Positions 11,920-15,199 of a stretch of DNA of 15,199 nt are shown here, one piece after another. This DNA comes from Saksenaea vasiformis B4078 (Eukaryota > Mucoromycota > Mucoromycetes > Mucorales > Saksenaeaceae). Positions within the stretch are counted from its first letter, which is position 1. Each line of letters opens with the position of its first letter. The notes under the pieces are model-generated. The model searched no databases. It was not told where the DNA came from and saw nothing but the letters and a program-made list of their open reading frames with translations. A program made the translations under genes and the position numbers. The stretch covers positions 1 to 15,199 of the forward strand of contig JNDT01001657.1 of the NCBI GenBank assembly GCA_000697055.1. Reading direction: 5' to 3'.

Positions 11920-13192
11920 GGTGATAAACCTTTTTCTTTTTTTCCCTTCGACTTTTTTTTTTCGGGTACAAAACCATTGAAAGTCCGGTTTTCAAAAATG
12001 ATCGGTCACGGTGGCTTTGAGATTTGAGCAGCAAAAATTGGCCATTTGGTACTCCGTTTCTGGTGCCTGAAATGAGAGCGTTCCGTTTTCTCCAGAACAA
12101 GTAAGGAGTATGGTTCTATCGACTTCTTTCAAAAGCACGTTTCATCATTGCCCCTTATTTTAAGGAAAATAGATTAGATGCTACGCAAAGTGGAACTTTT
12201 GGAGATAAACGGGTCACATGTCTTTTTTGCCTGTGATTCTGTCTACTGGCATAAGAGCTGTGAGAGAGGCTCCTTCTTTCGCCATGACAAGAGGAAAAAT
12301 AAGAAATCCCATGGAAGTTCTCCAGGTTGCTAGTTATTAAATGGAATGATACTTTGGTAATGGTCTACTTGCTCACAAATATGGCTATGGCTTTGAGCAA
12401 TAAGCTGTCCCCGTACCTTACACCAACGGGGCTGGCGTAGAAGGGGATCGGGTAAAGAAGGAACTATAGTACTGAAAATTACGTACTGCAAAGGACTTGG
12501 AGTGACGCATAACTGATTGCTTGTTGTAGAAGTGGATGTGACAACATTTATTCAACGGCGTAGGACAGCAGCACACCAAGAAAGTCCGAAGTGAGAGATC
12601 ATGCAAGCTAAATGATACAATAGTGACACTCTTACCGGGATGCTTTGCGAGAAACAGTGCCAAAGAGGAAAAATCAAAGCATTCGTGCATCCCTTTAAAT
12701 ATCCCCTTTCATTGCGCTATCTAAAACAGATTTTTCAATTGCAGAGACCTGTCACAATAAACCAGCACCGTACACTCTGAGTTGATGCAGAATGATCTCT
12801 TTTCCCGGGGAACATTCAAGAATATAATTGCGCATAAGAAATACAGTAGGCACTTATATAAAAATACGCTTGATAAACAAAGAACTTGAGAATATTTGCT
12901 AGCTAGGGTCTATAATCCACTGTCTGCTAAATTTGTTCCTTAAAAGGGTGCTCTTATATCGAGTCTCTACCGTATTTCACAACATAGAGCTTATTTAATG
13001 CTGGCGCCGGGCTATACAAAAAATTCGATAAATTGTCCTCTGCTTTTAGTGCGAGCGCTGTCTAGTCTGAGAGTTCAGCGGGCTGGGGCTATGAGACCAT
13101 GTCTGTAGCCCTGAAATCTCCGATCGTTAGATCATTTGCGGAGATTAGACCCCGTCCTTACCTGTCATACAAAGTGACGAGTGAGCAGTTCC
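11920..13192. other. Gene-poor stretch between nop7 and the Fanzor locus
   Basis: The first 200-300 nt should be the nop7 promoter and 5' UTR. Beyond this I recognise no protein. A 90-codon minus-strand open frame at 12418-12690 has no familiar motif, and its neighbouring frames do not continue through plausible introns. A TATATAAAA-like box lies near 12855 (plus). The last 140 nt (13053-13192) are rich in inverted repeats and are described separately. No terminal inverted repeat or target-site duplication was found that would mark an element end. Confidence 0.6.
12037..12041 (-). promoter_or_regulatory. CCAAT box (ATTGG on plus) upstream of nop7
   Basis: A minus-strand CCAAT lies about 118 nt upstream of the nop7 ATG, a usual distance for fungal promoters. 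Between the two, the minus strand is purine-rich (A runs at 11936-11960 in complement), as expected of a fungal 5' UTR. The evidence is motif only. Confidence 0.3.
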
Positions 13193-13220
13193 TTACTGCC
13201 GAACTGTCCTGGACAGTGCT
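13053..13220 (-). ncRNA. Candidate structured guide-RNA (omega-RNA) region at the Fanzor 3' end
   Basis: Five inverted repeats follow one another. In plus coordinates they are: CGCTG/CAGCG (13056-13060/13076-13080); GGGCTA/TAGCCC (13086-13091/13106-13111), enclosing AGAC-CAT-GTCT; AATCTCCG/CGGAGATT (13115-13122/13139-13146); GCAGT/ACTGC (13185-13189/13195-13199), spanning the stop codon; and ACTGTCC/GGACAGT (13203-13209/13211-13217). They straddle the last Fanzor codons and the 3' flank, on the same transcript strand. TnpB and Fanzor guide RNAs are known to overlap the 3' end of the nuclease gene or start just after it. The stems are seen; that they form a guide RNA is inference. No guide end or element boundary could be fixed. 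Confidence 0.3.
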
Positions 13221-15199
13221 GCCGGGCGAGATGTCAATTGGCATCCAGATTCGATGTAGCGAACAAAAACATCACGAATGTTCCGCCCGGCATTAACATC
13301 TCTATTCCAAAACTAATCAAATAGTTAAAATCCTTGTGTTACGTCTACCATCACAACTTACTAGAGATGTTCTGGTTCCTCGTCTACCGTACGCGCACTG
13401 AGGGCACAGTCGGATAGGGTAGACAATATTTCTGTAATTATTGCGAGCCATTCGTGTATTAGAGAAAGACGTATGCAAGCTGGACTAAACTATACCAAGT
13501 CGGCGTCTATCGGGGCATTCACTGCTAAGATGCAGAATCTGCCTGTCGCTATCTAAGCAATATTGACGTTTGTGCTTATGATGCCGACGTCTGATATACT
13601 TTTTGCTAGAGGTTAATTCATACAAGTTAGTCTTCCATTGTGTTCGATTGCTTGGCGAAACGTACCGATGATTACATAGTTGCATGTTATAATCACGGAA
13701 ATCAACTGTGTCGTGATGACATATGCTGCATACTTTGCTGGTTTTATATTCGTCCACGCATATTACGGGACATCGCCGTGCTAGAACCCTGCGAAAGGTC
13801 TACACTGTGAATATTAATAGGATTCACACTACCAGGAGAACCTTAACACTCGCACCTTCACCGGTAACGGTGCATGCCTTTTGTAGCCTCCACTATGCAG
13901 GTCGGCATCTCCGTATGCCACAAGCGCTCGACGCTGGTCACGTCTACTGTTCTGAGCCGCACGGTGTCGACGACGTTGGTAATACCGCGCGCCTTTATTT
14001 TGTTTTTGCACGTTTGCAACTGGAGGCTGAAACAGAGATACAATTAATGAACGAAGAGTCAGTAGTCAAATGCTCACCAGGGTTGAATTGGGATAAAATC
14101 CCCCGACCTGGTCTGCGATAACATCCATGGTCATATTTCTGGAAGATTCCTGCAACGCACGTCTTTCCCTGTGTCTGTAATGACGGTTGAACTCATCCGT
14201 CCTGGAAAGGATCCATTTAATATGACCATGTACTGCTAATACTACTCTGCAGTTACCTCTGTTTTTCAGTAAATTGTGCCGTGAGAAATCGTTGGAATTC
14301 CGGAACAGATGAAGCCGTCTTCGGTTGTTCCGACAGACGATCGTAGACTCCCTGCATGTTGGCGATTTCACGATTCTTCTTTTCTAGCTGAAGACTCCAG
14401 TTGAACTTGGAGCTGGATATGTACAGATTATTGATATCTTACTGATAATAATTATTTGTAACGCCAAATGTGTGGTTTTCTCTCGCCTCTTGATCATGAA
14501 GGTCATCTGCAGTATCCACAGCAGTTACAAGAGAACGGATCCCTAAGATATATATATATAGCTTCTGTTGAGTTCCTTATAGAAAAAAAAAATACCAGGA
14601 TCGATTCCCACTATTCGAGCTATCTCAGGATCTAAGTCGCGCGCGGCTGTTAAACCCCTAGGTTCCTTCTTCAAATGATATATGCCATTATGCAAAGTAG
14701 AGAAATCCCTATCGCGAGGAAGGAACTGAAAGTCTCTTTGAGAGGACGGATAAGATGCTGACATGCAGTTTTTGCGTTAACGTACTTCATGGTAAAACAA
14801 AGACTAGACTGACCTTGGTTCGGTTTGCGAGATTTAAATCTGACTGCCACCATAACGCCATCCGTCTCAAAGCCACAATCAAACTCTACTTCTGGTAGCA
14901 CATCGTTGTTTATCCCTTATATGAAAAATGTAAGGACGTTACTTCCATGCGGTTGAATATAGCCAAACCTTGTGCCCGGCGGCGGCGAGGCATCACTCTA
15001 TCAAGACAGAAAATTGTTTCTCAAAGCTGTTCGCGGTATATCATGTCCTTGAGCGCATTATTGAAGGTATGAAAGCCTTGCAAAGGACCCTAACGTAAGA
15101 GTGCCAATTTTTTCTTTGGTCAATCTATGGTTTTTTTTACGAGACACCTACCGCTAGATTTTCCGGGAGATCGGTGGTAACGTCTTTAAGCGCCCAGTA
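13193..15199 (-). pseudogene. Fanzor (eukaryotic TnpB-like RNA-guided nuclease), 5' end outside window, two in-frame stops
   Basis: Eleven minus-strand exons: 15199-15152, 15089-14969, 14915-14814, 14757-14596, 14542-14443, 14412-14257, 14201-14078, 14026-13856, 13799-13666, 13605-13362, 13312-13193 (1482 nt, 493 codons before TAA 13195-13193). Introns are 49-62 nt, except a 30-nt one at 14442-14413. Motifs in family order, numbered from the window edge: EFDCGFETDGVMVAVRF (the TDG block); RIVGIDPGIRSLVTAVDT (RuvC-I, Asp143, split by an intron after DP); TNNYY; YGDADLHSGGYKRHAPLPVK; CVDEYKTSKVCSIC (C352, C355); RLCPQC (C440, C443); FWNRDVNAGRNIRDVF (RuvC-III, Asp459). Fanzors cut DNA guided by an omega-RNA; the Glu of VDEY may be the relocated catalytic Glu known in this family. 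Odd: TGA at 15023-15021 sits where Trp is likely (before ETIFCLDR), TAG lies at 13487-13485, and a TAA (14441-14439) is removed only if the 30-nt intron is spliced. Exons 1-2 and the linker between zinc-ribbon halves (exons 9-10) are least certain. Fanzor1 versus Fanzor2 cannot be decided. Confidence 0.82.

Follow-up and report, generated by a model that had tools for sequence, protein, structure and literature searches.

Can a stretch of DNA in which no single open reading frame looks like a gene still hold the gene of an RNA-guided nuclease? The question was raised by the right end of the window analysed here, which is the whole of contig C312 (15,199 bases) in an assembly of 38.7 Mb and 666 contigs. 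A sequence-only reading had joined eleven minus-strand pieces at GT-AG sites into a gene of the TnpB/Fanzor family, located at 13,193–15,199. As that reading stated, the region offers no gene-like single frame: none exceeds 133 codons from stop to stop, and the longest lies on the plus strand. Elsewhere in the window, 7 of the 10 frames scanned matched ordinary host families (ribosomal L1, L5, LCAT, kinesin, pescadillo).

A family-based model of an intron-rich gene

We built gene models by dynamic programming over an alignment, run on 19 copies from the same genome. Damage in many of the copies made the copy-by-copy models vary, with exon counts between 14 and 22. We adopted the 18-exon chain of copy L018 and added one intron from L021, giving a sister-copy gene of 19 exons, 18 small GT-AG introns and 803 residues. 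The added intron has a length that is a multiple of three in both L018 and L021; apparent stops at codons 257–268 in several copies fall within it and are not real. A first model, drawn from L010 alone (21 exons), was wrong and was rejected, because it had invented introns that bridged defects in L010.

Each intron is covered by 20–24 copies; at least 19 of these have GT at its start, and at least 19 have AG at its end. This splice-site conservation does not count as independent evidence, since model building accepted an intron only where 80% or more of the copies had each dinucleotide. The independent test was a separate spliced aligner, which needs GT-AG in its target only. Residues 301–803 of the L034 protein aligned to the window with a score of 1992, whereas 20 shuffles reached at most 92; the full-length L034 protein scored 57 on the opposite strand. 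A protein of a second subfamily, 64% identical, aligned to the window with almost the same series of exons. The L034 protein spliced onto three members of that subfamily gave a similar chain, and those members carried stops of their own and odd joins.

Within the window, the minus-strand joins produce TDG, IDPG, VDEYKTSK with CSIC, CPQC and NRD in that order, followed by a TAA stop, just as had been read from the letters (Table 1). That these motif-bearing joins are no product of chance also held up, given the gap between the spliced and shuffled scores and a variability among copies that tracks codon position. The extent of the gene had to be revised. Where eleven pieces and 1482 nt had been counted, the family model places 12 exons in the window, from part of exon 8 to exon 19, with 1452 nt. 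Nor is the gene complete: the contig end truncates it, and its ATG would lie about 1.4 kb past that end, as judged from sister copy L010. A search of the genome by the expected flank did not recover the left half of the window copy. Counted from the contig edge, the first catalytic aspartate keeps its earlier number, 143 (residue 463 of 803), but the last one, placed at 459, is residue 449, so the later joins of the earlier reading differ from those of the family model by ten codons.

Table 1. Features at the right end of the window
Feature	Positions	Strand	Basis
Right part of the Fanzor-carrying transposon; left part off contig	13087..15199	-	Ten both-ended sister copies
Exon 8, 3' part only; gene runs on past contig end	15152..15199	-	Family model, spliced alignment
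Exon 9; in-frame TGA at 15021-15023	14969..15089	-	Family model, spliced alignment
Exon 10, FETDG block	14814..14915	-	Spliced alignment
Exon 11; its end is the first part of RuvC-I (VGIDPG, predicted catalytic Asp)	14596..14757	-	Family model, spliced alignment
Exon 12, RuvC-I continued, IRSLVTAVD	14443..14542	-	Spliced alignment
Exon 13; intron 12 before it lacks polypyrimidine tract and 3' AG (about 30 nt deleted)	14257..14418	-	Spliced alignment
Exon 14	14078..14201	-	Spliced alignment
Exon 15, VAYGDADLHSGG ... PLPVK	13850..14026	-	Spliced alignment
Exon 16, RuvC-II VDEYKTSK and first zinc knuckle CSIC	13666..13799	-	Family model, spliced alignment
Exon 17, insert within zinc ribbon, extra Cys/His	13496..13605	-	Spliced alignment
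Exon 18, second zinc knuckle CPQC; preceding 3' splice site is AC	13362..13453	-	Family model, spliced alignment
Exon 19, RuvC-III NRDVNAGRN; stop TAA at 13193-13195	13193..13312	-	Spliced alignment
56-nt block spanning the final nine codons, the stop among them, and the 29 nt that follow; can form three hairpins; candidate omega-RNA core	13164..13219	-	Copy comparison
More variable 3' part of the right end and terminal hairpin, GGGCTACAGACATGGTCTCATAGCC	13087..13163	-	Right-end comparison
Flank at the position of the sister copies' 9-bp duplication; would be where the guide starts	13078..13086	-	Analogy with sister copies

The predicted protein belongs to the Fanzor family

A published TnpB/Fanzor pattern reads D-X(125,275)-[TS][TS]-X-X-C4 zinc finger-X(5,50)-RD (PMC3627910). 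The L018 protein has D463, then 208 residues, then T672, S673, K, V and C676; its zinc cysteines are C676, C679, C750 and C753, followed after 14 residues by R768 and D769. The two cysteine pairs stand 70 residues apart, with extra Cys and His between them. The Fanzor branch has been described as having DPG at RuvC-I and a catalytic Glu six residues ahead of the first zinc Cys (PMC10711439), and L018 has DPG at 463–465 and E669-YKTSKV-C676. The predicted RuvC acids (D463, E669 and D769) and both cysteine pairs were invariant in three aligned family proteins. With the exon chain and with its D/E/D residues and zinc cysteines at published TnpB/Fanzor spacing, the central proposal, a Fanzor-family gene hidden by small introns, is supported.

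A profile search had been named as a check on this assignment, and its outcome was mixed. The four spliced proteins scanned against the TnpB-type zinc domain PF07282 scored 19.3 to 26.2 bits (E 1.3e-3 to 9e-6): 22.9 for L018, 26.2 for L034, 25.1 for L028 and, for a mixed C-terminal sequence taken from the second subfamily, 19.3. The window exon gave 19.4 bits. None reached the gathering score of 26.3, which is a library cut-off and not a biological trait, and membership stands on other grounds. An NCBIfam scan of the L018 protein returned nothing, and PDB sequence searches with this family matched no Fanzor, no TnpB and no solved relative. The same genome holds a Fanzor-like, uninterrupted open reading frame of 452 aa, L043, which scores 37.3 bits against PF07282 (above the cut-off) and gave a weak match to Cas12m in a PDB sequence search (E 0.084). 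Aligned with hhalign, three family proteins matched L043 with 96% probability over residues 627–786. Membership of the predicted protein in the Fanzor family rests on the motif set, on selection on the protein (next section) and on this profile match; Fanzor1 rather than Fanzor2 is suggested by the type of element and by the size of the N-terminal half, which is large.

The protein has evolved under purifying selection

Thirty loci were retrieved and 24 of them aligned; L027, L032, L033, L035, L036 and L038 were left out of the gene analysis. Variability across the 24 copies was 0.046, 0.037 and 0.137 at codon positions 1, 2 and 3, respectively, and 0.117 in introns. We computed dN/dS for 18 chosen pairs out of 276, on the 18-exon model, which still counts 22 intron codons. 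The ratio was 0.12–0.22 for 15 of the 18 pairs. It was 0.12–0.17 in the 13 compared pairs with dS of 0.28–0.90, and 0.51–0.99 in three very young pairs (dS below 0.04). The low ratios between long-diverged copies indicate that the reading frame has been under selection, and the combination of low values in old pairs with high values in young ones implies selection on the transposing lineages, with copies drifting once inserted.

A rival reading is a Fanzor-derived protein that the transposon or its host has kept for a role other than RNA-guided cutting, such as DNA binding or regulation. The wide separation of the cysteine pairs, with more Cys and His between them, and the weak Pfam scores of the spliced family proteins would suit such a role. 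We nevertheless consider it highly unlikely: all three RuvC acids and the two pairs of cysteines do not vary among the three aligned proteins, though L024 has NRH in place of NRD; purifying selection extends over the whole protein; and a 3' block is conserved, as a guide system would predict.

The window copy is damaged and most copies are broken

Three lesions set the window copy apart from its sisters. The TGA in exon 9 stands where 22 out of 24 aligned copies have TGG; L010 shares the TGA. Intron 12 has lost its pyrimidine tract and 3' AG to the deletion listed in Table 1. At the end of intron 17, the 3' AG has become AC and the next AG has become GG; this 3' AG is intact in 21 out of 23 copies and is missing from L029 too. 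The ten in-phase joins of the sequence-only reading trace a real gene, but they do not all fall on intact family sites, introns 12 and 17 being the damaged ones. A working nuclease encoded at this locus is likewise not borne out, since the contig end cuts the gene and the copy carries these lesions. Judged by its sequence against the sister copies, the window copy is most likely dead and no longer makes the protein; its lesions may stem from sequencing or assembly error.

For this copy to be a working Fanzor, the TGA would have to be read through or bypassed by a later start, and alternative splice sites would have to be used. The rest of its C-terminal half is open, exon 9 has an ATG downstream of its TGA, and intron 12 has an alternative in-phase AG. 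That AG would leave an intron of 30 nt, against 52–58 nt in the sister models; both of the nearby AGs that end intron 17 are changed; spliced alignments from two subfamilies fail at introns 12 and 17; and nearly all aligned copies have TGG at the position of the TGA. We regard a functional window copy as extremely improbable and treat it below as protein-dead.

An open frame of 804–805 codons is kept in 9 out of 19 gene-spanning copies. Five of these (L011, L016, L018, L021 and L024) have no stop, frameshift or changed splice dinucleotide, and the other four (L022, L023, L028 and L034) are changed at one or two splice dinucleotides. The TGA occurs both in the window copy and in L010, and the right flanks of these two differ, so an element with a broken gene appears, from these two copies, to have transposed.

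The gene lies in a multi-copy transposon with 9-bp target duplications

The sequence-only reading had made no mention of a transposon. A DNA search of the genome with 12,900–15,199 found at least 42 stretches at no fewer than 41 places, window included, with 74–100% identity (40 of 65 candidates scored). Since a single copy interrupted by a contig break may be counted at two places, right ends are the safer count, and there are at least 40 of them including the window (at least 39 others; 40 scored). We sought the left end in thirteen extended copies and found it in ten, in which the element is 4.5–4.96 kb long. Four of these ten both-ended copies have a perfect 9-bp target duplication, three have one that matches at 8 out of 9 positions, and three have none recognisable; the chance of zero or one mismatch in the same scan is 0.35% per copy. 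A 9-bp target duplication is a MuDR/MULE trait, and here it occurs at 8 or 9 out of 9 positions in 7 out of 10 copies. All seven duplications start with C. The element ends are typically GCTCGCC...GGAGCC, and these termini, judged by eye, amount to no more than short, imperfect inverted repeats.

The MULE transposase domain (PF10551) had 48 matches in the genome, none of them within an element copy. MULE matches and pieces of the element occur together on contigs C248 and C294, where distances of about 19 and 64 kb, judged by eye, separate them. A terminus shared with an autonomous MULE was looked for in five Fanzor or MULE loci and found in none of them. One lead, a terminus apparently common to this element and the Fanzor-plus-MULE loci L001 and L004, was dropped because the motif falls inside the MULE coding frame. 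The Fanzor at these two loci (C531 and C599) is of another, more TnpB-like family. A decayed MULE transposase faces it tail to tail at a distance of about 0.3 kb, and the two possibly form a Fanzor plus MuDR element.

The matches inspected for ghost elements comprised five right ends, four running into contig ends and one truncated, and one left-end match that stops near its contig end. At C154:30650, C396:1038 and C383:18190, only the first 113–117 nt of the element's left end are matched, and the C154 match stops before its contig end; these three places may be other elements with this terminus, or ghosts.

Several further observations concern the structure of individual copies. The left part of L010, L021, L022, L023 and L024 contains a 396-bp MITE-like insert (L039:5584-5976) with 48-nt inverted arms and about 10 bp duplicated; other copies, L011, L013 and L018 among them, lack it. 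A short way inside the left end lie three tandem degenerate repeats of 41 nt (L039:4724-4846), possible transposase-binding sites. Locus L027 (C632:104607-108023) has element pieces of 2.1 kb and 0.8 kb close together, suggesting a nested or tandem insertion. The left flank of L018 (C633, about 49750) holds a right-end-like acggagccc, as if elements had inserted side by side. The octamer tagcatcg occurs after the right end of L015 and, on a different contig, ahead of the left end of L019, which could reflect recombination between copies or an assembly split.

A conserved block at the 3' end is a candidate omega-RNA core

The first 29 nt after the stop vary at 0.010, as against 0.117 in introns, and the third positions of the last nine codons vary at 0.019, as against 0.137 overall. 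Four distant members and the window have 20–26 matches in the 29 nt, and the next stretch has 25–44% identity. Singleton changes in the block numbered 10, compared with 19.4 expected at the intron rate (P 0.015); they were not below the expectation for codon positions 1 and 2 (12.0, P 0.35). A 34-nt two-hairpin pattern was exact at 34 loci, window included, and absent from the reversed control. When a five-helix structure was laid over 25 right ends (24 distinct), 92.2% of cells were paired, compared with 22–37% when it was slid, a comparison that favours the structure because it was drawn from the same sequences that were scored. Four of its pairs were changed on both sides, a number reached in 8 out of 500 shuffles; further pair types showed no excess over shuffles (320 out of 500). 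The folding energy of the region is ordinary (z -2.0 to +0.4). A proposed long-range pairing between exon 19 and the block preceding the stop was dropped, as by eye it fails in other copies.

From these comparisons, nucleotide constraint beyond coding is well supported and the exact fold of the candidate RNA is partly supported. Folding energies hardly below those of shuffles, and a position 77 nt inside the right terminus, where a transposase can constrain terminal sequence, leave some room for a different function: a signal close to the right end that serves transposase binding or mRNA processing. The hairpins, on the other hand, still pair across subfamilies, with some paired changes, and the block overlaps the last codons, as the omega-RNA does in GtFz1 (PMC10432273). 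We think such a signal unlikely and hold that the 56-nt block is likely the omega-RNA guide scaffold.

How the element might work

We observed the gene structure, selection on the protein, the copy number, target duplications, the conserved 3' block and the lesions of the window copy. The explanation as a whole, read from DNA sequence alone, is that the window very probably contains the right part of a non-autonomous MuDR-like transposon with a Fanzor1-type gene and a 3' omega-RNA, in a copy that is most likely protein-dead. The omega-RNA would overlap the gene's 3' end and extend to the right end of the transposon. In an intact copy, the spliced protein would bind this RNA. The guide would be transcribed from the flank just past the right end, by analogy with Fanzor and TnpB work, and the complex would then cut DNA matching that flank, most simply the empty target site; tested Fanzors are the basis for this analogy (PMC10432273, PMC11423790). 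Cutting of the unoccupied site would favour the element's being copied back into sites it had vacated. Insertion itself would be carried out in trans by a transposase, probably of the MuDR type.

A variant of this scheme would give the broken copies a part. Protein-dead copies might still supply omega-RNAs and guides to the few intact ones, so that the nuclease acts in trans and most members serve mainly as guide donors. Hints are the apparent movement of the element with the shared TGA, the intact 3' block in the window and in other dead copies, and a rate of singleton changes in the block that is about half that of introns, though no lower than at codon positions 1 and 2. We consider this variant unlikely.

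Significance and comparison with known systems

At least 137 matches to PF07282 (E up to 0.001; 150 of 388 candidates scored), from several distinct families, were found in this genome. To these the present work adds a Fanzor family of dozens of copies, some of them with open frames. The six-frame PF07282 search lists one of the at least 41 element places (C584, 25.3 bits, below the cut-off), and intron-rich Fanzor genes are easily missed by a domain search of that type. Copies of differing age allow selection on the protein and on the putative omega-RNA to be read straight from sequence, and what a eukaryotic transposon gains from an RNA-guided nuclease becomes testable, including guide donation by dead copies. 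Titles and the opening lines of abstracts in the Fanzor and fungal MuDR literature, mostly outside subscription journals, held no description of this family. Fanzor itself is a known RNA-guided DNA cutter of eukaryotes; what is new is an intron-rich, multi-copy family.

Parasitella, the source of one studied Fanzor, belongs to the Mucorales. That protein, PpFz1 of Parasitella parasitica (Xu 2024, PMC11423790), is likewise a fungal Fanzor1, and its RuvC insertion (FRI) binds cyclophilin. Fanzor1 genes were reported in 2013 in MuDR-like elements of Rhizopus, Phycomyces and Mucor, with 9-bp duplications and no transposase of their own. Compared by description only, the family resembles the Mucorales elements ROr-4, PBl-3 and MCi-4 of that report (Bao and Jurka 2013, PMC3627910), which combine a Fanzor gene and 9-bp duplications with the lack of a MuDR transposase; the family here has 19 exons, a count known on this side only, and most of its copies are broken.

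SpuFz1 of Spizellomyces punctatus (Saito 2023, PMC10432273) is similar in being multi-copy, in having a 3'-end RNA that runs into the right end and in occurring as full-length and partial copies; it has ghost loci as well. SpuFz1 is a single open reading frame in a 2.1-kb locus, in contrast to the 19 exons found here, and its omega-RNA lies after the stop, whereas the block described here overlaps the last nine codons. GtFz1 differs at the third catalytic residue, which is Asn there and Asp in the three aligned proteins of this family (Saito 2023, Xu 2024). The overlap itself is shared with GtFz1, whose omega-RNA covers C-terminal codons, 17 aa in its case (Saito 2023, PMC10432273).
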